From IMG/VR virus record IMGVR_UViG_3300025617_000034, positions 1-50,770 of that record: a stretch of 50,770 nucleotides of DNA, one strand, 5' to 3'. The translations under genes and the position numbers were made by a program. Under the pieces are notes generated by a model. That model saw only the letters and a program-made list of their open reading frames with translations. It ran no database searches and was not told the origin of the DNA. The DNA comes from a virus. Below, one piece after another: positions 15,590-34,761 of the stretch; the stretch's first letter is position 1, and each line of letters opens with the position of its first letter.

Positions 15590-15955
15590 ATGGCAAATCC
15601 AAACATAGTAAACGTAAGCACAATCAGTGGAAAAACAAATGCAGTCGTTGCAAATGTCGCACTGACTACGGCATGCGCAAATCCAGTTTCTTCCGGAAAA
15701 ATTTTCAAAGTCAATGCAATTTCTTTAGCAAACAAAACGACTTCAACGACGGAAGTAACTTTACAGTTTCAAGACTATTCTCAATCAAACGCAACTTTTA
15801 ATATTGCAAAAACGATCGATGTGCCATCAGAATCTACTATTTTTGCTATAGATAAAAATACTGCTATCTACTTAGAAGAGGGTGATGCTATTGTCTGTAG
15901 TGCTGTTTCCGGTTCTTCAATTGATGTTATTGTAAGTTTTGAGGAAATCTCTTAA
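15590..15955 (+). CDS. Small structural protein, function unknown
   Basis: 121 residues, 12 bases after the previous gene and overlapping the next ATG (TAATG). It is beta-rich with no charged tail: NPIVNVS-like start (MANPNIVNVSTISGKTNAV), a SLANKTTSTTEVTLQFQDYS segment and an acidic end (VIVSFEEIS). The regular alternation of polar and hydrophobic residues suits a small beta-sandwich, such as a fibre or baseplate decoration domain. I do not recognise a family with certainty. The context (between two fibre proteins, in an operon) supports a virion role. Confidence 0.55.
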   Translation: MANPNIVNVSTISGKTNAVVANVALTTACANPVSSGKIFKVNAISLANKTTSTTEVTLQFQDYSQSNATFNIAKTIDVPSESTIFAIDKNTAIYLEEGDAIVCSAVSGSSIDVIVSFEEIS

Positions 15956-18900
15956 TGGCAAGACAACTCGGAAAGTTTATTGGTACCCAACAAGTATCTG
16001 CTAACAACTCATCATTCAGTGGGATTATTAATAACTTAGATACACTTGCTCGTCTGAAAAAAGATTTTAGTATACCTTCTGCCAATCCGGGTATTGTTGA
16101 TAAGTTTTTGATCGCAGAAGGACAACTTGAAGAAATATTTGATCGTTCTCGTTTTATGGCAAATTATGGGTATGGTGCTAACGACATTATTTTTAGTGAC
16201 GATGGAACTAGAGTATATTTTCTAGACGATACTGATGTTATCACGCAATATCGATGCAACATTGCCGGAAGTGTCGAAAGACTTGTTTGTACAGGACAGT
16301 TTGATTTAGCAGATCCAGATCACCCTAATTGGTTTATGGGTGACGCAGGATACGCAGAAACAGCACCACGGTCAATCGCATTCGGTAATAATGGTTATAA
16401 ATTCTATCTCGTCGGTGATGTTAATCCAGACTACATCAATGAATTCGATCTAACAACTCCTTGGGATTTGAATACTGCAACTTGGGTTAGAAAGTTCGAT
16501 TGGGGTGCTTATCAATCGATTCAGTTTAATTCTGATGGCACAAAGGTTTACACATCGTCTCCCAGTGCCGCTAATATTATTCTTCAGTGGAGTCTTTCAA
16601 CTGCTTGGGATGTTTCAACAATAACATTAGACAGTGGTGTTAATCTCAATAGTTTCTATGATGGAGTTGTGTCAGATCATCAATTCAAACCAGATGGCAC
16701 CAAATTATATGTCAGTCATTATGACTACACTTTTATTGATGAAATTGATCTGACAACTGCATGGGATTTATCAACTGCAGTTTTCAATCAAAGATTATCT
16801 CTCGTCGGTACAGATGGTTTGATGAACTACCATAAATTTGCACTCAATCCAGATGGCGATAAACTAATTATTTCAACCTCATCGCAAGTGCAACAATTCG
16901 ACTTAGAAACACCTTGGGATATTTCTACAGCAAATCTGTTACACAAAAAAGATAGAATTGTTATGGAAACCCTTGCACGTCAAAATGGATATATCAGTCG
17001 TGATGGGCATCATGCATATACAGTTCATATTACTGGTGATGATACTTATAAATCTACAGTATTTCAATGGTATATAGATAATGCATGGGAAACACAATAT
17101 ATGTCTCTCACAGGCAAATATCTAGACATTACAGATTTACAAGATGACATTGATTATATTTCTTTCGTCTGGTTCAAAGATGATGGAACAAAAATGTGGA
17201 TTGGTTCTTATTTAAATGATCAGATATGGGCATTCGACATTGCAACTCCATTTGACATTTCAACTGCAACATATGCAAACGAGACATTTTATGTAGGATC
17301 TCAAGAAACTGGTCCTCGTCATATGTTCATTGGTGACAGTGGTTCTAAACTGTACGTTATTGGAACGACTGGTGATGACATCACAGAATACTCATTAAGC
17401 ACTGCATATGATATTTCAACTGCAACTCACGTGACTCAAGTGACTGTTGCAAGTACTGCAACTATGGGAATCACATTCGATAACACTGGTGCTTATGTTT
17501 ATCTTGTGGATTACACTCCTGATTTAATCTACAGGTACACATTAACAACTGCTTGGGATCTTTCTACATTAGATACTGGTACAGTACAAACGGTCACTGC
17601 TAGATATCAAGTCGGAACATCTTCTTATCTAGATGAAAGAACACCGTATGGTTTACAATTATCGTCCGATGGAACAAGAATGGTTGTTATCGGTGATTAT
17701 AGAGATAACTTTGTAAGTTATACTCTTTCCCCTGCGTGGGATTTATCAACTGCATCAATGGATATTGTTGATCAGACTGGAACATTTACAACGAATACAC
17801 AGAATCCTTACCGATATACAACTGCGATTGATGCGAATCAAGACTTCACAACATTTTATGTTGCTGATACAATTAAAGAGAGTATATTCCAATATAATCT
17901 AAGTTCTAATACATCGATGATGAATGTATCGAATGTTTATCATTTCTCTGTTCTGTCAGAAACTAATGATCCAATTGGTCTACAATTAAAACCAGATGGA
18001 ACTGAAATGTATGTGATGCACAATGGTGGAAATATATTCACATATACACTATCAACTCCATGGGACATTCGAACTGCTACAGTTAATGCATCCAAACAGA
18101 GTTCATCTCTTGGTTCTAGTGGATTTAGAATTGTTAACAATGGAACTCAATTGATTGCAACAGACGATAGTCCAGATGAGGTGCAGTCATACACATTATC
18201 GACTGCATGGGATTTGAGTACTGCAGTTATCGACACTAATAACCAATTAGCACTGCACAATCAAAATCGCAGAGGTCCGTTTATGAGCACTGATGGAACC
18301 AAATTGTATTTCCATCAATTTAATGATAATTGGATGATACAATATGACCTCGCAACTGCTTGGGATCTCTCTTCTGCAAACACATCTTATGTGAAATATT
18401 ATGTTCCTGACGAATGGCACGGAACACTTGGCGTCGGTTCTATTTTTAATCAGTCTGGCAACACAATGTATCATTTACTTTCAACGAGTGGACAGAATTG
18501 GTTCAGTCGTGGAGCAGACTCTATTATTAGAAGAGAGTTGAGTACTCCTTGGGAATTGAATACGGTTCAACATCCATATTATGACGTTGTAGATAGTGGT
18601 GATTATTTCTGGCAATATGTGAAACATCCTGAAAATGATGATCAATATTTTATTCTGAGTAATGATGGAGACTTGAGACACATCGATCAAGAGAATAGAT
18701 ATCAAATTGCTGTTGTAAATTTCAAAGCACTTGGTCGTGTAATTAATGCACATGGTTTTAATTTTAAATCAGATGGAACGGGTCTATACATTGTCGACAG
18801 TAATAAATGTTCTATTGATTATTATACACTAAGCACTGCATGGGATATCACAACTCATGATTATCAATACAGTGTTACAGATATATTTGCTCAAACTTTT

Positions 18901-21351
18901 GGTACAGATGTACTTTATGATTTGAGATTCAAACCAGATGGTACACAATTATATTTGTTAAACAATACAGAAGATAGAATCTATCAGTTTGAGATGACAA
19001 CTCCTTGGGATATTCGAACAATGGTATATAACTCCCAATTTGCTGTCACAACAGGGGAGAGTGTTCCTCAAAGTTTCGATCTAGATTCATCAGGACGATA
19101 TTTGTTGTATGGTGGAACTTCAGATCAAGTGCGAATGGCAATTCTTTCTACTGCATGGGACATCTCTACCGCAGACACTGCAAATCATATTGCATCTGGT
19201 TTACTTCCGGGTGGTGATACTCATCTATGTTCTTGGATAGATAGCACACATTTTATTAAGGCAAACAGGTATAATTTTTATAAGTACAAAACCAAGTTTC
19301 CATATGATGTGTCATCAATTGCAACTTCTACGGGTGCAAATAGTTTTAACACTTATGATTTTAATATATCTATATCTCAGAATGCGAACTATGATACAGA
19401 GTTTTTCCAAGCATCTACGGACGAGCAGTATTTTGTATACGGCACTGGTACGAACCATGCAGAACGGATGCAGAACACGACTGCGGGGGACTATTCAACA
19501 TTAACTTATTTGACGCATGGCACGGCAGGAGCAACTGGCACGTCGAATCAGAGTTGGTTCGCAAATTTTGGATACACTGGTACATATTCTAGTCAATGGT
19601 ATTGGGCAAAAAATTTATGGACGCATGAAAATTTTGATTCGACACTATCCCAAGCATTTGTCATTTTCCAACATGGTGCTTCACAAGCTGTGCCAGACAG
19701 AACGGTTCCATATGGTTCTTGGGTATTTGGTAAGGTAAATACTACTACTAATGGAATCCAAAGAACACAGTTAACACAATTAAGAAATATCACATCCGGT
19801 GTTAATACAGGTGTCAGTAACATTGGAGGACACTCATGGAAAAGAGACGGAACTGAAGTATACTTTAGTGCAAATGATGGTAAAATTTATGCGGTGAGAG
19901 TCAGTACACCTTGGACTATTGGCGCAATGGAAGGATATACTGGATACTATTGGACACCAAATAGTAACTTCCAAAGAAATTTATCTTTCTGCGATATTAA
20001 AACAGAAGCATATGCAGTATGGGATTCAGGCAACACCACAATTCGTGCATTTGATTTTAGTGATGATGGTATGGAATGCATTATTCTTTTTGATAATGAC
20101 TCTAAGAATGCTCATGTGTATAAATTAAATTCACCTTGGGATATCACCACATTAACGGATACTGGGTATAGAATACAGGCAGACAATGATCTTGCAAATA
20201 GTGTATGCTATCGAGGAAATAGAATTTGGTTGGTAGATAAAGACGGAAAACAATTTAATCATCCTGTTAAAAAATATGAATGGGGAAATTCTTTGGCACA
20301 AATCGTTAACCCATTGGTGATCACGCAAACTGCTAATACAAGTTATCAGTTTGTATTAGACGATGGGTTAGATACGTTTGTTATTACATTTGCAGTCGAC
20401 GAAACCACACTAACTCTAGGTGAATCTGCCGAATTGACATTTGTGGAAGATGAAACACAACCTTTAGCAAACAATGGAACAGTATCTATTAATGGATTGG
20501 TTGCAACAGTTTCGGCAAATACAACAAACCCTGAAGCGAAAGCTTTCGCAGGAACTTTCTATCTAACAGAACAACCAATGAATAGAGAATTTAATGCAGG
20601 AACTGCCACATTTCAATTAGGTACAAAAGGCAAACAGTATGCGGGTTCATATGTTCTAAATACAGGTGGAACATTAGTAACTTATAATGTTTCTTCAGGT
20701 GCAAGTATTGATGCACAAATAGACGCATTGTCGAATGGGGACGCATTAGTTCTCGCACCTGGAACTTATACCATGACTGGTGGGACAGACGCATTTAGAA
20801 GTAAAAACATTTGTATTGCGGGTGACACACAAGACCCAAATGATGTAATCATTGAACATAATCATGACCTTCCATCTGGGGTAAGGGATCATCCTATATT
20901 CAATATCGTAAGTACAGATTTATCTCAACAGATGGCATTCTTGAGGTATAAGAGAATTCAGACAAGTAGCACAAATTATATTAGCGCAGTAGTTAAAGGG
21001 TTTGGGGATGTCAAAGGTAAAATGGTCAACTGCTTACTCGATTTTAATAACAGCAATATATCTTGGATTTATGATAACAATAATGATCCGCAAGTTGATG
21101 TAAGATTTATTCGATGCACATTTTATAATTATGCAACTTGGAGTGGAAGATATAGTGGACGTACTGATGTGGTAAAAGCAACAGATTGTGTCTTTGATGC
21201 AGGTTTCAACACTGGTGATGTGGTAGAAACTAACTATGCTACAAGTGTTACTGTTAACGGATCAACAGGAGCATATGATACTACAACTCATTCTGATAAA
21301 GGTCACCTATATATACCGGGAAACTTCAAAGATGATTCTGCATTGACATAA
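15955..21351 (+). CDS. Giant adhesin: about twenty 'DIST' propeller repeats plus C-terminal beta-helix (1798 residues)
   Basis: The N-terminus (MARQLGKFIGTQQVSANNSS) is followed by a long array, roughly residues 60-1440, of about twenty imperfect repeats. They follow the pattern 'F..DGT..Y........I..Y.LSTAWDLSTA', the same family as in the 411-residue adhesin at 4493; several beta-propellers are likely. Residues about 1455-1560 look Ig-like. Residues about 1575-1798 have SIDAQIDALSNGDALVLAPG, then YTMTGG and irregular beta-strand repeats, resembling the start of a pectin-lyase-type right-handed beta-helix. Without a visible catalytic set, enzyme activity cannot be claimed. Probable host-recognition or glycan-binding tail protein. 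By eye it is more AT-rich than the head genes. Confidence 0.7.
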   Translation: MARQLGKFIGTQQVSANNSSFSGIINNLDTLARLKKDFSIPSANPGIVDKFLIAEGQLEEIFDRSRFMANYGYGANDIIFSDDGTRVYFLDDTDVITQYRCNIAGSVERLVCTGQFDLADPDHPNWFMGDAGYAETAPRSIAFGNNGYKFYLVGDVNPDYINEFDLTTPWDLNTATWVRKFDWGAYQSIQFNSDGTKVYTSSPSAANIILQWSLSTAWDVSTITLDSGVNLNSFYDGVVSDHQFKPDGTKLYVSHYDYTFIDEIDLTTAWDLSTAVFNQRLSLVGTDGLMNYHKFALNPDGDKLIISTSSQVQQFDLETPWDISTANLLHKKDRIVMETLARQNGYISRDGHHAYTVHITGDDTYKSTVFQWYIDNAWETQYMSLTGKYLDITDLQDDIDYISFVWFKDDGTKMWIGSYLNDQIWAFDIATPFDISTATYANETFYVGSQETGPRHMFIGDSGSKLYVIGTTGDDITEYSLSTAYDISTATHVTQVTVASTATMGITFDNTGAYVYLVDYTPDLIYRYTLTTAWDLSTLDTGTVQTVTARYQVGTSSYLDERTPYGLQLSSDGTRMVVIGDYRDNFVSYTLSPAWDLSTASMDIVDQTGTFTTNTQNPYRYTTAIDANQDFTTFYVADTIKESIFQYNLSSNTSMMNVSNVYHFSVLSETNDPIGLQLKPDGTEMYVMHNGGNIFTYTLSTPWDIRTATVNASKQSSSLGSSGFRIVNNGTQLIATDDSPDEVQSYTLSTAWDLSTAVIDTNNQLALHNQNRRGPFMSTDGTKLYFHQFNDNWMIQYDLATAWDLSSANTSYVKYYVPDEWHGTLGVGSIFNQSGNTMYHLLSTSGQNWFSRGADSIIRRELSTPWELNTVQHPYYDVVDSGDYFWQYVKHPENDDQYFILSNDGDLRHIDQENRYQIAVVNFKALGRVINAHGFNFKSDGTGLYIVDSNKCSIDYYTLSTAWDITTHDYQYSVTDIFAQTFGTDVLYDLRFKPDGTQLYLLNNTEDRIYQFEMTTPWDIRTMVYNSQFAVTTGESVPQSFDLDSSGRYLLYGGTSDQVRMAILSTAWDISTADTANHIASGLLPGGDTHLCSWIDSTHFIKANRYNFYKYKTKFPYDVSSIATSTGANSFNTYDFNISISQNANYDTEFFQASTDEQYFVYGTGTNHAERMQNTTAGDYSTLTYLTHGTAGATGTSNQSWFANFGYTGTYSSQWYWAKNLWTHENFDSTLSQAFVIFQHGASQAVPDRTVPYGSWVFGKVNTTTNGIQRTQLTQLRNITSGVNTGVSNIGGHSWKRDGTEVYFSANDGKIYAVRVSTPWTIGAMEGYTGYYWTPNSNFQRNLSFCDIKTEAYAVWDSGNTTIRAFDFSDDGMECIILFDNDSKNAHVYKLNSPWDITTLTDTGYRIQADNDLANSVCYRGNRIWLVDKDGKQFNHPVKKYEWGNSLAQIVNPLVITQTANTSYQFVLDDGLDTFVITFAVDETTLTLGESAELTFVEDETQPLANNGTVSINGLVATVSANTTNPEAKAFAGTFYLTEQPMNREFNAGTATFQLGTKGKQYAGSYVLNTGGTLVTYNVSSGASIDAQIDALSNGDALVLAPGTYTMTGGTDAFRSKNICIAGDTQDPNDVIIEHNHDLPSGVRDHPIFNIVSTDLSQQMAFLRYKRIQTSSTNYISAVVKGFGDVKGKMVNCLLDFNNSNISWIYDNNNDPQVDVRFIRCTFYNYATWSGRYSGRTDVVKATDCVFDAGFNTGDVVETNYATSVTVNGSTGAYDTTTHSDKGHLYIPGNFKDDSALT

Positions 21352-22173: not shown

Positions 22174-25023
22174 ATGGCAATCCCATTAGCAAATAACAAT
22201 CCTGCAAACAATCATCCAATATCATTCGATCAAATTGAAGATGAATTTCTTTTTGAAGATGATGGGATTACACAAAGCACCCCAATATCTTTAGGTTCTT
22301 TTAGAGGTGAGTTGGGAACGTTCCCGAGTGTTCCTATATCCGTCAGTGCTTTTTCTGGAAAATCTATTGATCCTGAAATAACACCAATAACTTCTGTCGG
22401 TGGTCAATTAGTTAATGGTGTCCGAGAGTTCATTTACTTACAACAAGGAACTTTTACGGTACAAAAAATTGGAGAAGTGTACGGAGAAACTGCGAATACT
22501 GAATCTATTACTTGGACACAAACCAACAGGAACGTACTTGATTTAGGAATCAATGAATCGACAGGTGCCTCATTAACTTTTGAAGCACCGTTTTCTTTTT
22601 CAGATGTGCCCATGACACTCCGTGCTACAGCAGTCGATTGGCAAGGTGATGAATTCTATAGGGAAGTTCCCATCATTATTAAAGAATATAAAAGACCCGG
22701 ACAACCGCAACCAAAAAACGAAAATGCTGTAGGTCTCAGTAACGACAATCCAAAACTTTGGGATTATAATTATCAGTCGACAGGTGGAATGGATGTTTAT
22801 GAAAACTTGACAGATTCCACCTATACTAAAAAAATGGAATTTGAAGTTGAATTAACTGACGAATCAGCATTTCATCCATACGGAATTCCATATGATATTA
22901 ATTGGGTAGTTGAACAAATAACTCCTATTGAATGGATAACAACCGATGATATTTTACTCGAAACCAGAGAAAAAGGCAACGGAAGAAAATATTTACATGT
23001 GACATTAACAAAAGCACCTTCTATCGCAGAAAGCAAACTTTATGATCTTTTCGAGATACAGATCAGAGGGACAGTAACGGATCCTTTTCAACCAAATCAA
23101 GGTCAGGCATTTAATTTAAAAATAGCAAGACAGAAATTTGAAATTTCTGAAATAGATTGGTTGTCGAAAACATCAAATATTCGCACCTCTGCTTCATCCC
23201 TCCCTTCAGATATTAAAGTAGAACTCCCCCCTTTAAATCAAATACAAAAAGGTGATTTGTTATTTTTGGAAGTTGTTGCTGAATATTGTGATGTTACTTA
23301 TGATGCATCTGGAGTATTAAGTTTACCGGCCGGACAAATTATGCCATTAGCAGGTGAAGTCGTTCCGGAAGGAACACCGACTAAAATAGACTGGGACACT
23401 AGATGGGGTAAAGATGATGGGTGGATAATATTAACTCGGACAGATGCCATTAGACTTGGATATGATGTTTCGGAAGATGGTTCCATCGGGACAGTGCCTT
23501 TAGAACAACGGACTACATTATCATCCGGTATACGTGCGAAAATTACATCAATGAGGAAAACATATTATAGTAGTCCGACATATTATACAACCAGTGCTTC
23601 ACCTGTGGGCACTTATCGACAGGCATATGCCAGATACCTGCAGGGTGATAATAAAACCGCACCAAATTACACCGTCAGAGGAAATGCTAACAAAGAACAG
23701 TTTAGTAATGTCTATCGAGGGGGTAGCACCAGAAAATTAGTAATGAATGCTTACATGGTTGTTGAAGATCCTTCTGCATTATCACAAACATATAACCTGT
23801 TCAGAAACTATTTTGTCAGAGGTGAATCGGTTATTGTTTATCACGCAAGACCAAACAATTTAATAAAAAAAGTACACATAACTTCCTCTAAAGCATATCC
23901 TGTTGCGAATGAAATTTATGATGGAAAATCAAAAGTAGTTACGGAAGAATATAATGAAACTTATGGTTTTAAAGTTTGGAAAAAAGATGGTTTAGATAGT
24001 AAACTCAATGGAAAAATAGCAAGATATAGTGAAGTGTTTTATAATAGTGTCGATCTTTATTCATCTCCTGAAGCACCAAATTATCCATATCCATTTTATA
24101 TAAAAACAGGAACTGTCTCAGGTCACAAATATTCTTATAACAACACGGAAGGTGTGGGTGAGGAATATGAAAGACTATTGCCAATGCCAGATGCCAGAAT
24201 ATGGGGTGGGTTAATAGGACTAGCAGATCATCCGGGGTTTGCAGGAAGTGGTGACCGTTATTCTAGACGAACATATTCTTCCAGTTTTTCTAGATATGTT
24301 TCGGGTGGTTTAGGATTCTCCAGTTGGTTCAGTGGTGGAACTAATTCTACCAGTTCTTCCGAAACTTTTGATTCTCCTAATGAATCATCAATAATTAAAA
24401 ATAATACTTATTCGACAGGAAAAGTTATAACAGATTATGGACCTCTTAAAAGTAACTTCAACACATCTGACAGCAATTTTGTTGTTGGATACAAATCTAG
24501 AAGACCGAGCCTTGGAATCAGTCATGATTCAGGAACATCTATCAGATCACCAAATAGTCCATATAATGTTAATAATTCATATGGATCTTTTCAAGGCAAT
24601 GCATTAATTCCGTTTAAAGGTGGTGCGGGAAGTCTATTCATTGCCAATGCACGTATGGGTATTAAAATTGCTGACACGGCTTTATTTTTAAATCCAGTTG
24701 GCAATATGGTTGCAACTATTACCAGTGAAACTATCCAGTATCGTGACTCCGTTTCTGGGTTACCGGGAACCGAAAAACAGATTATATATGGAACTGAAAT
24801 AACTTTGTCTAAGGCATACCTTGCAACAGAACTTCCCAACACAGGGAACAAACAAAACTCTCTTATAATAGCAGGAGGATATTTTGATATGTGTCTTTAC
24901 GGAAATGATCCCTTATATGAAAACTCGTCTCAAGTTCCTTTTGCTCATAATACTGAGGTTTTTCCTTCTACAGCAGAAAACAGTGACAGTGTGGTGTTTA
25001 AGAGTTTTGATTGGGATGCGTAA
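22174..25023 (+). CDS. Large tail protein with marine-phage 'SLGSFRG' N-terminus (949 residues)
   Basis: The N-terminus contains ISFDQIEDEF, then TPISLGSFRG, a pattern that I recall opening many tail proteins of marine myoviruses. Residues about 65-175 form an Ig/PKD-like domain (FTVQKIGEVYGETANT, then ITWTQTNRN). The rest is a long mixed region with no repeats as regular as those upstream. Residues about 690-745 are very rich in Ser, Tyr and Arg (RYSRRTYSSSFSRYVSGG), and the chain ends VVFKSFDWDA. It has its own late promoter and is the last gene before the neck genes. Likely a fibre or adhesin; no enzymatic motif. Confidence 0.6.
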   Translation: MAIPLANNNPANNHPISFDQIEDEFLFEDDGITQSTPISLGSFRGELGTFPSVPISVSAFSGKSIDPEITPITSVGGQLVNGVREFIYLQQGTFTVQKIGEVYGETANTESITWTQTNRNVLDLGINESTGASLTFEAPFSFSDVPMTLRATAVDWQGDEFYREVPIIIKEYKRPGQPQPKNENAVGLSNDNPKLWDYNYQSTGGMDVYENLTDSTYTKKMEFEVELTDESAFHPYGIPYDINWVVEQITPIEWITTDDILLETREKGNGRKYLHVTLTKAPSIAESKLYDLFEIQIRGTVTDPFQPNQGQAFNLKIARQKFEISEIDWLSKTSNIRTSASSLPSDIKVELPPLNQIQKGDLLFLEVVAEYCDVTYDASGVLSLPAGQIMPLAGEVVPEGTPTKIDWDTRWGKDDGWIILTRTDAIRLGYDVSEDGSIGTVPLEQRTTLSSGIRAKITSMRKTYYSSPTYYTTSASPVGTYRQAYARYLQGDNKTAPNYTVRGNANKEQFSNVYRGGSTRKLVMNAYMVVEDPSALSQTYNLFRNYFVRGESVIVYHARPNNLIKKVHITSSKAYPVANEIYDGKSKVVTEEYNETYGFKVWKKDGLDSKLNGKIARYSEVFYNSVDLYSSPEAPNYPYPFYIKTGTVSGHKYSYNNTEGVGEEYERLLPMPDARIWGGLIGLADHPGFAGSGDRYSRRTYSSSFSRYVSGGLGFSSWFSGGTNSTSSSETFDSPNESSIIKNNTYSTGKVITDYGPLKSNFNTSDSNFVVGYKSRRPSLGISHDSGTSIRSPNSPYNVNNSYGSFQGNALIPFKGGAGSLFIANARMGIKIADTALFLNPVGNMVATITSETIQYRDSVSGLPGTEKQIIYGTEITLSKAYLATELPNTGNKQNSLIIAGGYFDMCLYGNDPLYENSSQVPFAHNTEVFPSTAENSDSVVFKSFDWDA

Positions 25024-25031
25024 ACAATACT

Positions 25032-25039
25032 TATAAATA
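25032..25039 (+). promoter_or_regulatory. T4-type late promoter TATAAATA (neck-packaging operon)
   Basis: An exact octamer 27 bases upstream of gp13. No other octamer sits in front of a start codon until 32226, so this promoter probably drives the whole gp13-14-15-16-17 operon. A weak GGAAAC/GTTTCC hairpin (25042-25063) lies in the leader and encloses the AAGG ribosome-binding site. Confidence 0.85.
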
Positions 25040-25066
25040 TTGGAAACTAACTGAAAGGTTTCCATT

Positions 25067-25807
25067 ATGGCAAATCCAACTACAAGAGACGAACTCAAAA
25101 AATATTGTCTACGAAGTCTTGGGCATCCGGTAGTCGAGATTAATATTGACGAAGACCAGATGCAAGACCGTCTTGATGATGCACTTGCTTTCTACCGTGA
25201 CTACCACTATGACGGTGCTGAAAGAGCATATTTAAAGCATCAGGTGACTGTAGACGATATTGCAAATAGATATCTTCCGATTCCAGAAACTGTCACTTCA
25301 ATCGTTCGTGTGTTTGATGTGGGTGATTCTAACTCATCTATCAATATGTTTGATGTTCGATATCAGTTTCACCTGAACGATCTCTACGATTACCTCGCAA
25401 CTTCTATCGTGCCTTTTGATATGGTAATGCAACACATTGCACTTCTCGAAGAAAAGTTCGTAGGGAAGCAACCTATTCGTTTCAATCGTCACACCGACAA
25501 ACTTTATATTGAAATGGATTGGGATAGAATTAATGTCGGAGAATTTCTTGTAATCGAGTGCTATAAATACCTAGACCCTGACGAATATACTTCAGTTTGG
25601 GGGGACTGGTGGCTACGTCGTTATACCACCGCATTGTTCAAGAGGCAGTGGGGAGAGAATATGAAGAAGTTTGAAGGAATGCAACTGCCGGGTGGAGTCC
25701 AATTTAATGGACAAAAAATTTGGGAAGAAGCAATCGAAGAGATTCGCAAACTGGAAGATGAAGTCATCAATAACTTCTCATTGCCAGTAACAGACATGAT
25801 TGGATAA
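25067..25807 (+). CDS. 13: Neck protein gp13
   Basis: 246 residues (T4 gp13 is 309). It opens with TTRDELKKYCLRSLGHPVVE, then INIDEDQMQDRLDDALAFYR, which is the conserved start of gp13-family neck proteins. Aromatic and charged segments follow (VWGDWWLRRYTTALFKRQWG) near residues 173-195. With gp14 it forms the ring that closes the filled head and joins it to the tail. Position first in the 13-14-15-16-17 string supports the call. Three bases separate it from gp14. Confidence 0.85.
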   Translation: MANPTTRDELKKYCLRSLGHPVVEINIDEDQMQDRLDDALAFYRDYHYDGAERAYLKHQVTVDDIANRYLPIPETVTSIVRVFDVGDSNSSINMFDVRYQFHLNDLYDYLATSIVPFDMVMQHIALLEEKFVGKQPIRFNRHTDKLYIEMDWDRINVGEFLVIECYKYLDPDEYTSVWGDWWLRRYTTALFKRQWGENMKKFEGMQLPGGVQFNGQKIWEEAIEEIRKLEDEVINNFSLPVTDMIG

Positions 25808-25810
25808 CAC

Positions 25811-28800
25811 ATGCCAACAACAAACTTATACTTCAGCAACTACTCATTCACAGGTGAGCAGAGACTTATTGAAGATCTAATTATTGAAGCAATCAAGATC
25901 TACGGTGTCGAATGCTACTACCTGCCCCGTACACTTGTCAATGATGACGATGTGTGGGGAGAGGATGCGTCATCTAAATTTGAGGTTGCATATCCTCTTG
26001 AGATGTACATCAAGAATGTTGAAGGGTTTGAGGGGGAAGGTGACTTCCTATCTAAGTTTGGTCTTGAAATTCGTGACTCGGTTACACTGACTATCTCTCA
26101 GAGAAGATTTGGTGAAGAACTCCATCCAGATGACACGACTTCAGAAGCAGGTCGTCCTGTCGAAGGTGATCTTATCTGGTTCCCACTCAATGGAAAGATT
26201 TTTGAAGTTAAGCATGTAGAGCACGAAGCAATCTTCTATCAGTTGGGTTCACTGCAGACTTACGACTTACGATGCGAACTGTTCGAATACAGTTCAGAAA
26301 TTATCGATACTGGTGTAGGTGTCATCGATGACATTGGTGCGAAGTACAGCATCGACGAACTCATTCAGCAGATCCTTTTCGAAACATATACAGATACTGC
26401 ATTTGCAAATGTAAATATTAATAATGGAACAGTGTTATCTGTAGATATCATCCATCCCGGTGAGAACTTTACTAATGCACCGATTGTAACATTTGAATCT
26501 CCTGAAGGTGAACCCGTTCGTGCAACTGGAGAAGCAATATTAGATAATGGAAGAATTATTGGTGCGACAATTATCAACGGTGGGGGTTACTATTCAAATG
26601 CTCCAAATGTGACATTTGCAAGACCATTTGCGAATGGAGAATCTGCAATTGCAGTTGCGGGACTCACTCAAGGTACAGTTTCTGACATCAATGTTCTTTC
26701 TGGTGGATTTTTCTACCTGAATCCCCCAACGGTAAATATTTCAGAACCAAATGGAATATTCATGATGGGAGGAAGAATTTCTAACACTGAATCTATTATG
26801 GGTGATTACAGTCTTTATTATGAAAGTGCCCAAAGATTTAACAGAATCCGAGGATTAGAAAATTATGCTAATTCTACGTTTGACTTTTTTATCAAACCAG
26901 TTTCCAATAATAGTAGTGGAGTCATCTTCAGCACAGTAAATCATTCTATCTCAGTGAACAACGGAATTCTAGAAGTGGATTCAGTTGCATCTAACGGTCA
27001 GGCAATCACGACAGATGCATGGACATACGTAATGCTTCAAGCAAACACTTCAACTATTCACTTAAGACAAGATGAAATTCTTGTTGCTCAAACCGAAACT
27101 TCTTCTTCATTTGCTAATGGATTTATTAGAATTGGTGAACCAAACGGAAATTCTTTTGTCGGATTTTACGACGCATTAAGGTATAGAGATTCGTTTGTTG
27201 ATGATGTGAGGGTGCCTATTACTAATACACGAGCTGCAACGGGGACAGTATCAGTTACTGACGGGAAAGTCTCAGGTATCACTGTTAGTGATGGTGGGGG
27301 ATATTACACTGAAGTACCAACTGTAACTGTTGATCCTCCTACAGGATATAGTAGGACAGCAAATGTCGCAGTGTCTGTAAACAATCATTCGATTGTCGCA
27401 CCCGTCATAAATGACGGTGGTTTCTATTACACCACACCTCCACAAATTACAATCAGTCCTCCGGAAAATTTAACTTATGACCAAGAACATGTTTTTTATG
27501 GAAACAGTGCTCTGTATCTAACTTCCGGAAAATCTATTGTTATGTCAGATCTTCCGAGTCAGGAGTATGGAACAGTTTCTTTATTGATCAAATCTGAACT
27601 TGAGGATCTTTCTATTGCTGAGGGTGCATTGCCCAGTAACACAGATTTTATAGTATCTGCCGAATATTCTCCTCCGACATATTACTTTAATGTTGATTCG
27701 GTTGATGATCTTGAACTGCCAGAAAATCCAACTATAACTTTATACAGAGGATTAACATATACTTTTGACACCTCTAATCCGGAAGAAGGATATGAAACCA
27801 CTCCTTTATGGATTAAAGATAGTTTAGTCGAAGGAAATAATATATCAACATACGATAATGGTGTTACCAATAATGGAGTAGCAAATGGAGTGATACGATT
27901 TGTAGTTCCAAATGATGCACCAGATACTTTATATTATGTGAATGGTGAATATTTTGAGATGAATGGTGAACTTAATATTCAAGATATTCCTGTCTCGCAA
28001 TTCTGTAACGACGTTATTGCGTTCACAGATGATTGGAACATTAAGATCAACCAAGAGGCAGGACAATATGTATATGAATTTAATTATGGTAATAACAAAT
28101 TAACCAATCCTAGTTGGTCTGCATATAGTGATTTTGACATTTACAGAAACTATACATCAATCGAAGTTCAAGTTTATGAAGATGATGAAGAAACAAAATC
28201 TCTTGCGGTGAGAATGAATGGTGTAGGAAATACAGTAGTTTTAACATCTTCATTTAATGTGTCAAATGGAAGTTTGACATTGGGTGCTCCCACTTCAAAT
28301 AACTATTATGATGGTGTTACAGTAAGTGATTACAGTAATACATCTCCTCAAATAATTTATACTGGATTTGCCATTCCTCAAATCGGAACATATAGTTTAT
28401 GGGGAGCAAATGTTACATATTCACAAGATTTTTCGAATAGTATTAGTGCGACAGCAGTATCTTCAGTTTCTAATGGTACGGTTACATCAATTACTATTAC
28501 AAATAACGGTTTTGGGTATATTGAAGTTCCCACAATTACAGTTGCCAATGTTTCAATAAATACGTACTCCACTGCTACTGCAACTGCAACAATTTCTGAT
28601 GGCACCGTTTCTAATTTTACAGTAACTAATTCTGGTGTTGGATACGCATCAGTGCCAAATATTACAGTTTCCAATGCAGTATTCAATGAATTTACATCAG
28701 GGACTAGTTATGCAAATTCAATATACGTTAATTCATTTGAATATATTACTGCTCAAGCAAACTCTGTAATCAATTCAAATGGTGCAGTAATTGCAATTAA

Positions 28801-29317
28801 TGTCATTGAAGCAGGTTTCGGATATCAGTCACCACCAATAGTGACTGTTGAGGTGCCTAATACCGATCTTTATATCACCGCAACGGGAACAACTGAAATA
28901 TCAAATGGAGTTGTGACTGCAGTTAATATCACAAATGGTGGGTTTGGTTATACTCAATCTAACGGATATATGGTTATCAACCCTCCAATCTATAATACAG
29001 CAGAAGGGTTTGCAGTATTGAATGCAAATGGTGAAGTATCATCTATTACAATCACAGACTCTGGTCAAGGTTATACATCTGTACCTAATGTATTCATTAC
29101 AGGTGATCCTATCGAAGGTTCTCTACAGACTGAAGAAGGACAGTTCTTCTTACACGAAGAGTCTAATACGACGAATCTTTCTACTGATAATGATTATGCA
29201 CAGAACGATAAGTTCCAAGAAATCATTGACGCACCTGTTACTACAGAACCGAATGATGATACTACCTTCATCGACTTCTCGGAGAGAAATCCATTCAGTG
29301 AAGGAGGAGAGTGGTAA
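25811..29317 (+). CDS. 14: Neck protein gp14 with an inserted adhesin-like region of about 900 residues
   Basis: 1168 residues, against 256 in T4. Residues 1 to about 188 are ordinary gp14: YFSNYSFTGEQRLIEDLIIE, DVWGEDASSKFE and SLTISQ-like QRRFGEELHPDD. The last about 70 residues (from about 1098, IDFSERNPFSEGGEW at the end) also look like the gp14 C-terminus. Between them lie ten repeats of the type 'GG(F/G)YY..(P/V)P.(I/V)T(V/I)', a LamG-like region (about 318-468) and a cupredoxin-like region (about 624-725). The insert would project from the neck, as whiskers do in T4. It is in operon with gp13 and gp15, sharing a TAATG overlap with the latter. Confidence 0.8.
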   Translation: MPTTNLYFSNYSFTGEQRLIEDLIIEAIKIYGVECYYLPRTLVNDDDVWGEDASSKFEVAYPLEMYIKNVEGFEGEGDFLSKFGLEIRDSVTLTISQRRFGEELHPDDTTSEAGRPVEGDLIWFPLNGKIFEVKHVEHEAIFYQLGSLQTYDLRCELFEYSSEIIDTGVGVIDDIGAKYSIDELIQQILFETYTDTAFANVNINNGTVLSVDIIHPGENFTNAPIVTFESPEGEPVRATGEAILDNGRIIGATIINGGGYYSNAPNVTFARPFANGESAIAVAGLTQGTVSDINVLSGGFFYLNPPTVNISEPNGIFMMGGRISNTESIMGDYSLYYESAQRFNRIRGLENYANSTFDFFIKPVSNNSSGVIFSTVNHSISVNNGILEVDSVASNGQAITTDAWTYVMLQANTSTIHLRQDEILVAQTETSSSFANGFIRIGEPNGNSFVGFYDALRYRDSFVDDVRVPITNTRAATGTVSVTDGKVSGITVSDGGGYYTEVPTVTVDPPTGYSRTANVAVSVNNHSIVAPVINDGGFYYTTPPQITISPPENLTYDQEHVFYGNSALYLTSGKSIVMSDLPSQEYGTVSLLIKSELEDLSIAEGALPSNTDFIVSAEYSPPTYYFNVDSVDDLELPENPTITLYRGLTYTFDTSNPEEGYETTPLWIKDSLVEGNNISTYDNGVTNNGVANGVIRFVVPNDAPDTLYYVNGEYFEMNGELNIQDIPVSQFCNDVIAFTDDWNIKINQEAGQYVYEFNYGNNKLTNPSWSAYSDFDIYRNYTSIEVQVYEDDEETKSLAVRMNGVGNTVVLTSSFNVSNGSLTLGAPTSNNYYDGVTVSDYSNTSPQIIYTGFAIPQIGTYSLWGANVTYSQDFSNSISATAVSSVSNGTVTSITITNNGFGYIEVPTITVANVSINTYSTATATATISDGTVSNFTVTNSGVGYASVPNITVSNAVFNEFTSGTSYANSIYVNSFEYITAQANSVINSNGAVIAINVIEAGFGYQSPPIVTVEVPNTDLYITATGTTEISNGVVTAVNITNGGFGYTQSNGYMVINPPIYNTAEGFAVLNANGEVSSITITDSGQGYTSVPNVFITGDPIEGSLQTEEGQFFLHEESNTTNLSTDNDYAQNDKFQEIIDAPVTTEPNDDTTFIDFSERNPFSEGGEW

Positions 29318-30135
29318 TGTTTGGACATCAGTTTTATCACGGAACCATAAGAAAATATATTATCATGTTTGGTAATATGTTCAACGATATTAATATCGAC
29401 AGGTTTGACAAATCAGGAAATATCATTCAGTCATTGAATGTCCCTATTGCATACGGTCCGAGAGAAAAGTTTCTTTCAAGACTCAGAGAAGATCCTAATC
29501 TGAATCAAGAAGTTGCAACTATTCTTCCAAGACTGTCATTTGAAATTACAAACATATCGTATGATCAGGCAAGAACAATCAACAAGATGCATAATATTTC
29601 GTCTAGGGGTGCAGGTGCGGATGTTCTTGCGTCAACATCTACTCCTATTCCATACGATATAAATATTACACTAAATGGTATGTTTGCGACGAATGAAGAT
29701 GCAGTACAGGTAGTAGAGCAAATTCTACCATTTTTCAGACCAGAGTGGACTCATTCATTGAGATTGGTAGATGACCTTTCAGATCATTACATTGATGTCC
29801 CTACCATACTTAATGACATGACAATCACAGATTCCTATGAAGCAGATTTTCAAACCCGCAGAGCTATTATATACACTTTTAACTTTACTGTCAAGGGTTA
29901 CTTGTACGGACCTGTTAAGAATCGTGGTGTTATTAAAAGAACGATTGCTAACCTGTACGAAGGTGATAATCCCGCAACTGATGAGAAGAGAAAGTCAATT
30001 GATCTCGAACCGGGTCTCAAATCTGATGGTAATCCAACGACAGACAGAACAGAAAGTATAGATAGAAATAAGATTAAGTCCGAAGACGACTATGGTTATG
30101 CATTCGATAATGAAACATTCTTTACAGGTGAGTAA
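29317..30135 (+). CDS. 15: Proximal tail sheath stabilisation protein gp15
   Basis: I chose the ATG at 29317 (TAATG overlap with gp14) over a GTG two codons earlier. It gives 272 residues, the length of T4 gp15, and a start MFGHQFYHGTIRKYIIMFGN that matches the T4 family pattern MFG.FY...(F/I)R+Y. Other conserved segments are VEQILPFFRPEW (about residues 143-154) and FNFTVKGYLYGPV (about 189-201). gp15 caps the tail tube and sheath and binds the neck. It is followed two bases later by gp16. Confidence 0.87.
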   Translation: MFGHQFYHGTIRKYIIMFGNMFNDINIDRFDKSGNIIQSLNVPIAYGPREKFLSRLREDPNLNQEVATILPRLSFEITNISYDQARTINKMHNISSRGAGADVLASTSTPIPYDINITLNGMFATNEDAVQVVEQILPFFRPEWTHSLRLVDDLSDHYIDVPTILNDMTITDSYEADFQTRRAIIYTFNFTVKGYLYGPVKNRGVIKRTIANLYEGDNPATDEKRKSIDLEPGLKSDGNPTTDRTESIDRNKIKSEDDYGYAFDNETFFTGE

Positions 30136-30137
30136 GT

Positions 30138-30572
30138 ATGAAAACAAATGTGACAGACACTCTCAATGATGCACTTGGCATCGAGGGGGAACTCGTGGAT
30201 GAAGAAGCAAAAGAAAAAGTTCCAACTCTGAAAAGAGAGAACTTTGAGGCACGGACACGCAACCAAGACGATATTTCAAAAGACTATCAGTACGCAAGGG
30301 AAAACCTGTACGATGTCATTGAAAGAGGGACAGAGGCACTAGACCATTTACTTGAACTCGCAAAAGCCTCGGAACATCCTCGTGCATTCGAAGTGGTATC
30401 TACTCTTACCAAAACACTTGTCGATGCAAACAAAGACCTGTTGGAAGTCCAAGCAAAAGTTAAAAAGTTGACCGAAGAAGAAAGATCGGATCCTCAAAAT
30501 GTGACAAATGCATTGTTCGTTGGTAGCACTGCAGATCTGCAGAAATTATTGAAGAAGAATAATGAAGATTGA
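30138..30572 (+). CDS. 16: Small terminase subunit gp16
   Basis: 144 residues (T4 gp16 is 164), mostly helical. The conserved central part is DISKDYQYARENLYDVIERG, then EALDHLLELAKASEHPRAFE and VSTLTKTL (about residues 47-100), predicted to form the oligomerising coiled coil. The C-terminal tail is polar and lysine-rich. It regulates gp17 and helps initiate packaging on concatemeric DNA. Its 3' end overlaps gp17 by 11 bases, implying coupled translation. Confidence 0.85.
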   Translation: MKTNVTDTLNDALGIEGELVDEEAKEKVPTLKRENFEARTRNQDDISKDYQYARENLYDVIERGTEALDHLLELAKASEHPRAFEVVSTLTKTLVDANKDLLEVQAKVKKLTEEERSDPQNVTNALFVGSTADLQKLLKKNNED

Positions 30573-32214
30573 CCGTGGTTACCTTGGTAATGAGAAACTA
30601 AAACGCAAAGGGCAGAATATCGAATGGACTGAAGATAAAGTCCAAGAGTTCGTCAAGTGTGTAGAAGATCCCATCTACTTTGCAGAAAAGTATATCCAAA
30701 TCGTACATGTGGATCATGGTCTGATTCCAATTCAGATGTATGACTACCAGAAAGAGATCGTCGAGAAAATCACCAACAATCGTCGTGTCACGGTTGTCAC
30801 ATCACGACAGGCAGGTAAGACTACCACTGCGGTCTGCGTTATATTACATTATGTGTTATTTAATGATCATAAGACTGTTGCACTCCTTGCAAATAAAGGC
30901 GATGCCGCACGAGAAATCCTAGATCGAATCAAGATTGCATACGAAGCACTGCCAAAGTGGTTGCAACAGGGTGTGGTGGAATGGAATAAAGGTTCTGTAG
31001 AATTTGAGAATGGATGTAAGATTATTGCATCTGCGACATCAAGCAGTGCTATTCGTGGTAAGTCAATTTCATTACTGTACATTGACGAAACTGCTTTTGT
31101 CGAAAACTGGGATGAGTTCTTTGCTTCCGTATTTCCAACCATTTCATCTGGTATGACTACCAAGATTCTATTCACCTCTACACCTAATGGACTCAATCAT
31201 TTCTACAAGACGTGCGAAGGTGCAAGAGAAGGTACGAATGGTTATGAGTATGTGCAGGTTTTGTGGAAAGATGTTCCGGGAAGGGATGAGAATTGGAAGA
31301 AAGACACTCTCTCGTCTATGGACTTTGACTATCAGAAGTTTGCACAGGAATTTGAATGTGAGTTCCTCGGTTCATCAGGAACACTGATCGATGGTTCAAA
31401 GTTGAAACAGATGGTTGTTAAGCAACCAATCCAAGAAGGGTCTGGTATCTACAAGTATGCAGAACCAGAACCGAACCATACATACTTCTGCGTAGTGGAT
31501 GTCTCTAGGGGTAAAGGACTTGATTACTCTGCTTTTCAGATTATCGATGCGACAAAAATGCCGTACATACAAGTCTGTGTTTTCCGTGATAACTTTGTGA
31601 CCCCTATTGAATATGCAGAAATCATACATAGAACAGTAAAATATTATAATAATGCTATTGTCTTGGTGGAGGTTAATGATATCGGTGAACAGGTATCTGA
31701 ACTATTACACTTTGACTTTGAGTACGAAAATATTTTGTATACCGAAAGTGCAGGAAGATCTGGAAAGAGAATCTCATCAGGTTTCGGTAGATCGGTTGAT
31801 AAGGGGATACGAACCACAAAGACTGTCAAATCAGTTGGTTGCTCGATTCTAAAACTTATGATTGAGCAAGACCAACTCATCATCAACGACTTCAACACAA
31901 TCCAAGAACTTTCAACATTCTCTCGTAAGGGAGTATCTTGGGAAGCAGAACCGGGAAGTCATGATGATCTAGTGATGAGTCTTGTGCTGTTCTCGTGGTT
32001 ATCAGATCAGATGTACTTTAAGGAAATGACTGATATTAACACCCTTATGAAACTGCGAGAGAGAACAGAACAGGAGATGATGGAAGAACTGATGCCATTT
32101 GGCATTTACGATGATGGTCTTCCGGATGAAAACGTGATTGAAGTGGAACAAACTAGAACAATGAGTATGGATGAGGTAGATGATTTCGTTAGGTACAACA
32201 ATTTTGACTTCTAA
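30562..32214 (+). CDS. 17: Large terminase subunit gp17 (packaging ATPase/nuclease)
   Basis: 550 residues (T4 gp17 is 610). Walker A SRQAGKTT is at residues 81-88 with the Q motif upstream (IQMYDYQKEIV). Walker B YIDE is at 173-176, and the coupling segment TSTPNGLNHFYK follows. The C-terminal RNase H-like nuclease domain shows its acidic residues in VVDVSRGKGLDYSAFQ, VEVNDIGEQ and PGSHDDLVMSL. It docks on the gp20 portal, pumps DNA into the prohead and cuts it at headful. No promoter is visible between gp13 and gp17, so it should be expressed from the late promoter at 25032. Confidence 0.97.
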   Translation: MKIDRGYLGNEKLKRKGQNIEWTEDKVQEFVKCVEDPIYFAEKYIQIVHVDHGLIPIQMYDYQKEIVEKITNNRRVTVVTSRQAGKTTTAVCVILHYVLFNDHKTVALLANKGDAAREILDRIKIAYEALPKWLQQGVVEWNKGSVEFENGCKIIASATSSSAIRGKSISLLYIDETAFVENWDEFFASVFPTISSGMTTKILFTSTPNGLNHFYKTCEGAREGTNGYEYVQVLWKDVPGRDENWKKDTLSSMDFDYQKFAQEFECEFLGSSGTLIDGSKLKQMVVKQPIQEGSGIYKYAEPEPNHTYFCVVDVSRGKGLDYSAFQIIDATKMPYIQVCVFRDNFVTPIEYAEIIHRTVKYYNNAIVLVEVNDIGEQVSELLHFDFEYENILYTESAGRSGKRISSGFGRSVDKGIRTTKTVKSVGCSILKLMIEQDQLIINDFNTIQELSTFSRKGVSWEAEPGSHDDLVMSLVLFSWLSDQMYFKEMTDINTLMKLRERTEQEMMEELMPFGIYDDGLPDENVIEVEQTRTMSMDEVDDFVRYNNFDF

Positions 32215-32225
32215 TCTCCGAAAAT

Positions 32226-32233
32226 TATAAATA
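32226..32233 (+). promoter_or_regulatory. T4-type late promoter TATAAATA (sheath gene)
   Basis: An exact octamer 48 bases before gp18. It is followed by a strong Shine-Dalgarno AGAAGGAGAT at 32266-32275, in keeping with a very abundant product. Confidence 0.9.
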
Positions 32234-32281
32234 TTGCAAGTAATAAAAAATATGACTCTTTAATGAGAAGGAGATAAAACG

Positions 32282-34186
32282 ATGCCTTTCCAAGTATCAC
32301 CGGGAGTTAACGTTAGTGAGATCGATCTAACTACGGTAGTCCCTGCGATTGCAACCACTGAAGGTGGTGTTGCAGGTTCATTCCGTTGGGGTCCGGTTGA
32401 AAAACCAGTCCTTATTGGTTCAGAAGATCAACTCGTTGATGTTTTTGGTACTCCAAAATCAGACGATGCGGTAACATTCTTTACTGCGGCAAACTTTTTA
32501 GCATACGGCAACGCACTGTACACAGTTCGTGCAATCAACAATGCAAACAACGCAGTCACAGGTTCTGCTAACACAACAGTTAAGAACGACGATGATTATG
32601 CAGAAAACTTTACTGATGTCGATTCAAACTGGGTTGCAAAATATCCGGGTGAATTAGGTAACTCATTGAAGGTTTCTATATGTAACTCTGCAGACGCATT
32701 CGAAAGCACAGTATCAGCAACACACACTTTGGTCACAGGAAGCAAAAACATTGTTTTTGGATCTAATGTTGCCTCACAATTTGTCACTGGAGACGTAGTA
32801 TATCTTGGTTCTAGTGATGCAAAAGAAATTCATAGGATTTCTGAAATATCTGCAAATGGAACAGTGATCACTTTAGAATCAAATTTCTTAGGTTCTTTCG
32901 AATCATCTGAGTCAGCCGCAAGTACTACAGTAAAACGTACTTGGGAGTATGCAGGTGAGTTTGATACTGCACCAACGACTTCACCCTATGCAGAAGGACT
33001 AAATGCAACTAATGATGAAATTCATGTTGTTGTTGTTGATGAACTCGGTGAGATTACTGGTGTTCCTAAAAATGTAATTGAAAAGTTTTCAAACCTTTCT
33101 GTGGGTTCAAATGCTCGTACTACTCAGGGTGGTGGAAACTACTATAAGACTGTGATTAACAATCAGTCTCAATACATTTGGTGGGGACAGCATCAAGTTT
33201 CTACACATGGTGATCAGATTGTAAATGGCAAAACATTTACGCAGATAACAATGCCTGTGACAGAATCATTTACACTAGGAACAGATGGTGATACTTTAAC
33301 AACTGCACAGAAAATTACTGCATACGATCAGTTTAAGAATGCTGAAACTCTTGATGTATCATTCGTCTTGGGTGCCGAAGCAGATCAAACTCTTGCAATA
33401 CATATCATCAATAACATTGCTGAAGCAAGAAAGGACTGCTTGGCAGTAATTTCACCAGAAAGAGCAGATGCAGTAAACAACAATTCATACGATGGTAAGG
33501 AAATCGATGATGTTATCGCATTCCGTAACACATTACCATCATCTTCTTATGCAGTACTCGATTCAGCATGGAAGTATCAGTATGACAAGTACAACGATGT
33601 ATACCGATATGTCCCATTAAATGGTGACACTGCGGGTCTGATGGTACAAACAGACTTGACTCGTGATCCTTGGTTCTCTCCTGCAGGATTTAACCGTGGT
33701 AATGTTAAGAATGTTATCCGTCTGTCATACTCTCCAAACAAAGCACAGAGAGATGCATTGTATAAGAACGGAATCAACCCTGTCGTAACATTTGCAGGAC
33801 AAGGAACTGTACTGTACGGTGATAAGACATTGCTTGCTAAACCATCTGCATTTGACCGTATCAACGTTCGCAGATTGTTTATCATTCTTGAGAAAGCAAT
33901 CTCAACTGCCGCAAAGTTCACACTGTTCGAATTCAACGACGAATTCACTCGTTCACAATTCAAGAACTTGGTCGAACCATTCTTGCGTGATGTGCAAGGT
34001 CGTCGTGGTTTAACAGACTTCCGTGTGATCTGTGATGGAACTAACAACACTGGTGAAGTAATCGACAGAAATGAATTTGTCGGTGACATCTATATTAAAC
34101 CTGCCCGTTCAATCAATTTCATTCAGTTGAACTTTGTTGCGGTCAGAACTGGTGTTGAGTTCTCAGAAGTCGTAGGTCAAGCATAA
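32282..34186 (+). CDS. 18: Tail sheath protein gp18
   Basis: 634 residues (T4 gp18 is 659). The start MPFQVSPGVNVSEIDLTTVV, then AIATTEGGVAGSFRWGPVEK is the sheath signature. The C-terminal half contains the conserved region with NPVVTFAGQGTVLYGDKTL (about residues 499-517), NVRRLFIILEKAI and the end IYIKPARSINFIQLNFVAV. It forms the contractile outer tail. It has its own late promoter and strong ribosome-binding site, and the promoter for gp19 overlaps its stop codon. Confidence 0.95.
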   Translation: MPFQVSPGVNVSEIDLTTVVPAIATTEGGVAGSFRWGPVEKPVLIGSEDQLVDVFGTPKSDDAVTFFTAANFLAYGNALYTVRAINNANNAVTGSANTTVKNDDDYAENFTDVDSNWVAKYPGELGNSLKVSICNSADAFESTVSATHTLVTGSKNIVFGSNVASQFVTGDVVYLGSSDAKEIHRISEISANGTVITLESNFLGSFESSESAASTTVKRTWEYAGEFDTAPTTSPYAEGLNATNDEIHVVVVDELGEITGVPKNVIEKFSNLSVGSNARTTQGGGNYYKTVINNQSQYIWWGQHQVSTHGDQIVNGKTFTQITMPVTESFTLGTDGDTLTTAQKITAYDQFKNAETLDVSFVLGAEADQTLAIHIINNIAEARKDCLAVISPERADAVNNNSYDGKEIDDVIAFRNTLPSSSYAVLDSAWKYQYDKYNDVYRYVPLNGDTAGLMVQTDLTRDPWFSPAGFNRGNVKNVIRLSYSPNKAQRDALYKNGINPVVTFAGQGTVLYGDKTLLAKPSAFDRINVRRLFIILEKAISTAAKFTLFEFNDEFTRSQFKNLVEPFLRDVQGRRGLTDFRVICDGTNNTGEVIDRNEFVGDIYIKPARSINFIQLNFVAVRTGVEFSEVVGQA

Positions 34187-34212: not shown

Positions 34213-34761
34213 ATGGCATTTAATGTAAATGAGTTTGCAGGAGCACTAAAACTTGGTGGTGCTCGTAACTCACTTTTCCAAGTGCAGATTACGAACCCCA
34301 TCAATGGTGTCGCAGACGTACAAGTGCCATTCCTATGCAAAGCAGCGCAAATTCCCGCAGCTACATTGGGTGTGATTGAAATTCCATATTTCGGTCGTAC
34401 TATTAAGCAAGCAGGAAATCGTACCTTTGCGGAATGGGCACCAACAATCATCAACGACGAAGACTTTGCAGTTCGTAATGCGATGGAACAATGGTCAGGA
34501 ACAATCAACTCGTTTCAAGGAAACTTGAATAACGCAGGTGGTTCTAATGCATCATTGTATAAATCGAATGCGACGGTCACACAATATAGTAAGACTGGTG
34601 ACATCTTGCGTGTATATAATTTTGTAGGCATCTTTCCATCTGAAGTTAGTTCAATTGATCTTTCATGGGATGCAGAAACTATTGAAGAATACACCGTTAC
34701 ATTCCAGTACGACTATTGGGAAGTAGTTGGTGGTACCACTGGTAACGCCGGTGGCATCTAA
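34213..34761 (+). CDS. 19: Tail tube protein gp19
   Basis: 182 residues (T4 gp19 is 163). Conserved tube signature: FLCKAAQIPAATLGVIEIPY, then FGRTIKQAGNRTFAEW and INDEDFAVRNAMEQWSGTIN (about residues 35-98), and a C-terminal VTFQYDYWEV. It polymerises into the inner tail tube. It lies between the sheath and portal genes exactly as in T4. A perfect hairpin that overlaps the next promoter follows it. Confidence 0.92.
   Translation: MAFNVNEFAGALKLGGARNSLFQVQITNPINGVADVQVPFLCKAAQIPAATLGVIEIPYFGRTIKQAGNRTFAEWAPTIINDEDFAVRNAMEQWSGTINSFQGNLNNAGGSNASLYKSNATVTQYSKTGDILRVYNFVGIFPSEVSSIDLSWDAETIEEYTVTFQYDYWEVVGGTTGNAGGI

Follow-up and report, generated by a model that had tools for sequence, protein, structure and literature searches.

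The gene at positions 25811-29317 (+ strand) of the window, by which we mean the whole 50,770-base virus record analysed here, is one uninterrupted ORF of 1168 aa, and its product is a T4-type gp14 (head closure protein Hc2) into which about 907 residues (194-1100) are inserted. Among gp14 proteins of this class, which is widespread in the sea, it is one of the large ones; in the open-access literature, with subscription papers outside the scope of the search, we found no description of this class of insert. In the reading that we prefer, and to which we give a probability of roughly 0.55, the insert is a swappable neck-decoration arm, an accessory adhesion device that is expanded, shrunk and swapped at a fixed site.

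The identity of the gene is given by both of its ends and by its neighbours. Residues 5-183 match the Pfam family PF11649 (T4_neck-protein) at 6e-38, with a score of 131 bits against a curated cut-off of 25, and the ORF also matches phrog_460 (the Hc2 family of PHROGs) at 1.5e-108 and, among PDB sequences, the solved structure of T4 gp14 at 7e-28. The C-terminal ~70 residues are alignable with the C-termini of all compact gp14s ('DFSE-NPFSEG'), and the conserved gp14 C-terminal tail is present by alignment and by a C-terminal profile. The order of the neck operon is kept, with gp14 placed between gp13 and gp15, the start of gp15 overlapping the gp14 stop (TAATG) and the terminase genes coming after. 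T4 gp14 (PF11649) shares with the window the core domain, the order gp13-gp14-gp15-gp16-gp17 and the conserved tail, but it has 256 aa and no insert, whereas the C-terminal arm of the window protein is broken by 907 extra residues. A fusion with a neighbouring gene was ruled out by the gene order and the completeness of the neighbours. The features of the region are the following:

25067..25807, + strand: gp13 (head-tail adaptor Ad2), 246 aa, without the fibritin-binding domain III (phrog_211; alignment with T4 gp13).
25811..29317, + strand: gp14 (neck protein, head closure Hc2) with internal insert, 1168 aa (ORF; PF11649, phrog_460 and T4 gp14 matches).
25811..26359, + strand: conserved gp14 core, with the T4 N-terminal loop, helix, beta-barrel and stopper loop (Pfam; alignment with T4 and compact relatives).
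26360..26389, + strand: boundary segment, residues 184-193, where homology to compact gp14 stops (alignment).
26390..29110, + strand: insert, residues 194-1100, about 907 aa (none in the 93 compact relatives; differing content in the 81 expanded ones).
26390..26503, + strand: repeat 1, GxGYxxxPxVT type (profile search, as for all repeats below).
26507..26626, + strand: repeat 2.
26636..26749, + strand: repeat 3.
26753..27238, + strand: LamG-like (concanavalin-type) region, a weak assignment, its last few bases overlapping repeat 4 (aligned segment of contig L003; poor model).
27230..27340, + strand: repeat 4.
27344..27463, + strand: repeat 5.
27467..28444, + strand: mid region, unassigned and presumably beta-rich, with the cupredoxin-like domain inside it (sequence and L003 counterpart).
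27719..27985, + strand: cupredoxin-like domain, common with the C-terminus of phrog_677, copper ligands lost (phrog_677 match, 3.5e-13; ligand alignment).
28445..28546, + strand: repeat 6.
28568..28678, + strand: repeat 7.
28748..28858, + strand: repeat 8.
28877..28957, + strand: repeat 9, partial.
28994..29110, + strand: repeat 10.
29111..29317, + strand: conserved gp14 C-terminal tail and stop codon (C-terminal profile, alignment); the T4 counterpart binds gp15 (PMC12270204).
29317..30135, + strand: gp15 (tail sheath stabilizer/terminator), of ordinary length (phrog_227; sequence).

An earlier note on this DNA had assigned residues 1-188 and the last ~70 to ordinary gp14; the length of the tail stands, but the limit at residue 188 gave way, in the alignment to compact gp14s, to an insert of about residues 194-1100. 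The ten repeats that it had counted were recovered, at about 40 residues each, with a profile built iteratively from the window gp14 and its relatives, and all ten profile units of the window fall inside this ORF. A plain regular expression gave 8 matches in the insert against a shuffle mean of 0.29 (maximum 4; 2,000 shuffles). In the full-length AlphaFold2 model each repeat consists of two long strands and one short, at a pLDDT of ~80-94, and the core matches T4 gp14 structures; residues 315-470 and 556-732 fall below 50. The structure prediction proposed earlier is thus confident for the repeats, but not for the LamG-like and mid regions. A separate model spanning repeat 3 to repeat 5, made from five sequences, reached a pLDDT of 38.

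The two domain labels stand to different degrees. For residues 315-476 the term LamG-like is plausible but weak: the window has no Pfam LamG match, the aligned region of L003 matches Laminin_G_3 at 1.8e-4 with a score of 22.1 bits, where the cut-off is 27.6, and a Foldseek search with the poor model of this region listed lectin folds, none of them significant. In a separate lineage (L177 and L205), similar repeats flank a LamG-like region when compared by eye. The mid region is perhaps a second LamG-like sandwich, and it contains, at residues 637-725, a match to the domain that forms the C-terminal end of phrog_677, a family annotated as baseplate wedge tail fiber protein connector. Cupredoxin-like is a reasonable name for the fold family of this domain, but not for a copper site, as from the set His, Cys, His, Met the window copy retains the Met only; its relatives in P-SSM2 and P-SCSP2 keep all four. 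Foldseek matches to ATP synthases and a PDB match to HSP60 (0.045) were set aside as chance.

Comparison with other phages gave a constant insertion point and a variable content, the two things that the earlier note had wished to see compared. We collected 174 distinct complete marine gp14s from four viral-contig scans plus three isolate cyanophages; since these proteins were selected for their resemblance to the window and three long queries, the proportions of the set (93 compact, 81 expanded) mean little. The compact proteins have 218-297 aa and no repeats in any, and the expanded ones 448-1333 aa with 2-12 repeats in every one, such that the insert at the constant site measures from 0 to ~1,150 residues. 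In the long gp14s inspected, the core reaches to residue ~172-198, and ~70 residues make up the C-tail. A second sample, obtained by scanning for the pattern of a conserved motif in the core and less query-biased, though also partial, gave 70 complete gp14s. Of these, 36 were short and had no repeats, 30, with lengths of 445-852 aa, had repeats, and two repeats each were counted in 2 proteins of 297 and 308 aa. The other two were a protein of 328 aa (L348 4642-5637), whose sole insert, free of repeats, resembles a single cupredoxin-like domain, and a protein of 377 aa that has a different insert. None of these 70 reached the size of the window protein.

The same range is found among isolates. 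Expanded forms occur in S-CAM9 (657 aa), S-8S56 (644), RN05-S (489), S-SCSM2R (479), P-SSM2 (470) and S-RIM4 (390), and short ones in P-SSM4 (308 aa), S-PM2 (292), Melnitz (287), Mosig (272), T4 (256), DLP6 (251) and phiM12 (217). Cyanophage gp14s of phrog_460, such as those of P-SSM2 and S-CAM9, carry the repeats of the window at the same site; unlike the window, they usually have 2-8 repeats and neither a LamG-like nor a cupredoxin-like region, and the largest isolate form inspected, at 657 aa, has little more than half the length of the window protein. The window phage is itself not a typical cyanophage, because its capsid and terminase are closest to those of T4-like phages of Stenotrophomonas, Methylophilales, Pelagibacter and Sinorhizobium.

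Expanded gp14 arose several times independently. On the tree of the core, the distribution of compact and expanded forms needs 5 changes, at least 3 of them forced by well-supported branches, and the window and L003 group together among compact relatives. The insert is less identical than the core in 17 of 17 pairs (31% against 74% between the window and L003). Its dN/dS in close pairs is 0.11-0.33; for 11 pairs a value could be obtained for insert and core alike, and in 10 of them that of the insert is the higher. The insert is therefore a maintained but faster-evolving protein. Between L177 and L182, whose cores are 97.8% identical, a block of ~88 residues was gained or lost, which indicates quick turnover of modules. 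Positive selection on cyanophage gp14 has been hinted at in the literature (PMC5112629), but we did not use this, as by the authors' own account their signals are no more numerous than the false-positive rate would give.

That gp14 is a ring protein of the virion, as the earlier note had it, agrees with T4, where it is a hexamer whose residues 178-256 have no order until the tail attaches, at which point they bind gp15 (PMC12270204). The insertion site falls within the region equivalent to these residues. By analogy, we infer that gp14 of the window phage forms a hexameric ring that closes the head and binds gp15. Because T4 gp14 is a hexamer and the insert lies in the gp15-binding C-terminal arm, there would be six arms at the head-tail joint, probably a neck display of large appendages that evolve fast. 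Of the many arms proposed earlier, the sequences show a long beta-rich module at a constant site with variable content, and six arms at the neck are the reading that follows most naturally. Going by homology to T4, the core would still close the head together with gp13 and the conserved tail would still dock on gp15, while the module of beta-repeats, lectin-like and cupredoxin-like parts would loop out of the gp15-binding arm. Six copies radiating from the joint would amount to a neck decoration of ~0.6 MDa (907 residues times the T4 hexamer). Their most likely job would be to bind, with low affinity and multivalently, the host envelope or extracellular polysaccharide, with phages expanding, shrinking and swapping the arm at one fixed site.

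Multivalent surface adhesion appears to be the most likely role of the insert by analogy with lactococcal neck passage structures and with inserts in Dit proteins. The neck passage structures of 936 and TP901-1 phages are variable modular neck arms, as here, some of them with carbohydrate-binding modules, and for one such module binding to host cells was demonstrated (PMC6669499). The analogy is one of function only: the lactococcal structure is a protein of its own, which is dispensable and for which an 18-mer collar has been proposed, whereas the arm of the window is built into a presumably hexameric stopper protein. Evolved Dit proteins (PMC6669499) resemble the window gp14 in that a carbohydrate-binding module is inserted into a conserved structural ring protein; however, Dit is an unrelated protein at the tail tip, and the insert described here is at the neck. 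Modules of the insert also occur in other surface and tail proteins of virions: gp7, baseplate proteins and further structural proteins of cyanophages contain the repeats, and phrog_677 the cupredoxin-like domain. The name adhesin, given to the insert earlier, is a fair inference from these module types and denotes a predicted function; the repeats themselves may be spacers only. In general the insert is dispensable, because many phages of the same clades are without any.

The main rival to adhesion is a structural clamp, in which the arms would be packed onto gp15, the sheath or the head vertex and make the head-tail joint stiffer, with no host or environmental ligand bound. The location of the insert within the gp15-binding region of gp14 speaks for it, and so do the repeats in gp15 of some relatives with compact gp14 (13 of 84 such contigs against 0 of 67 with expanded gp14, a raw count uncorrected for kinship), which would fit a shared local role. 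However, compact relatives do without such a clamp, sizes vary more than fivefold, and the content of the insert is common to tail and baseplate surface proteins and evolves faster than the core; we consider reinforcement unlikely, though worth keeping in mind. In the contigs sampled, repeats in gp14 and in gp15 look mutually exclusive. Two contigs with compact gp14 (L252 6711-7838 and L243 6723-7841) have a gp15 with two repeats, and the Pelagibacter phage Mosig (L275 3771-5369) has a gp15 of 532 aa with C-terminal repeats of the insert type and a laminin-G-like domain (1.6e-3 to laminin alpha-2).

A wider version of the adhesion reading, which we put forward only tentatively, is that gp14 of marine T4-like phages may be a general display platform: the fixed gp14 site or the C-terminus of gp15 would take swappable adhesive arms, and the resulting six-fold neck adhesin would help to set which hosts or particles are bound while going unrecognised under the annotation 'neck protein'. 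T4-like phages rank among the commonest marine viruses and a large share of the sampled marine gp14 genes carry an insert. Should the arms bind surfaces, a neck device that is named in no annotation would take part in how these phages attach to their hosts and are transported.

It had also been suggested that the insert may stand in for fibritin whiskers, which would mean that it holds the tail fibres or helps to attach them. T4 whiskers (wac) are neck fibres, as proposed for the arms of the window, but fibritin is a separate trimeric protein held by domain III of gp13 (residues 190-239; PMC12270204), and neither was found in the window. In agreement with the reported absence of a wac gene, no Fibritin_C (foldon) match was obtained in the window or in any of 12 other marine records, a set that covers both forms of gp14 and includes fragments, with a positive T4 control, and cyanomyoviruses were already known to be without wac (PMC2984593). 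Domain III, ~47 residues in T4, is absent by alignment from gp13 of the window and of all compact and expanded relatives and isolates compared, except T4. The same losses are, however, shared by relatives whose gp14 is compact and by the compact isolates phiM12, DLP6 and S-PM2, so that absent whiskers do not predict an insert; S-PM2, with its gp14 of 292 aa, is viable and was reported to be without a collar (PMC2984593). A loss common to both forms gives no specific support to the idea, and we find such a replacement quite improbable. In cyanophages of the S-CAM9 type (L136, L082 and kin) gp13 is enlarged to 373-382 aa, and its insert sits at another place than domain III of T4.

That two or more genes were wrongly joined by assembly or annotation has in its favour only the large size of the insert and the metagenomic, fragmentary nature of the record, and is hardly credible given an independent contig, homologous inserts that are larger still, isolated and annotated phages of like architecture (S-CAM9, S-8S56, P-SSM2) and purifying selection on related inserts. 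The independent contig is L002, also from IMG/VR, which covers window positions 24358-33133 and crosses both insert junctions. Over these 8,776 bases it differs by 1 mismatch, which is synonymous, and the gp14 protein is 100% identical, so that mis-assembly is unlikely. L002 could stem from the same population, yet it is a separate assembly. In L003 and L004, gp14 has 1333 residues and the module order of the window. The earlier note had named uniformly short relatives and junctions not spanned by reads as what would speak against it; there are instead 81 expanded relatives and a contig across both junctions. The exact insert of the window is rare at close identity, as a viral-contig search with the insert alone returned nothing but its twin L002.

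Large ORFs, fibre-like or of no known kind, lie directly upstream of gp13 in the window, and in pelagimyophages a hypervariable host recognition cluster adjoins gp14 (PMC7029224). The ORF at 9304-15093 (1929 aa) has many overlapping tail-fibre family matches. The one at 15955-21351 (1798 aa) has many repeat units like beta-propeller blades ('DGT-LYV ... TAWDLSTA') and a weak Lactonase match (3e-7), and it probably encodes a large virion surface protein. The ORF at 22174-25023 (949 aa), immediately before gp13, has no significant Pfam or PHROGs family match. Past the neck genes, a first tail-tube-like protein is encoded at 34213-34761 and a second (phrog_45, 1e-36) at 40573-41097, after the major capsid gene.
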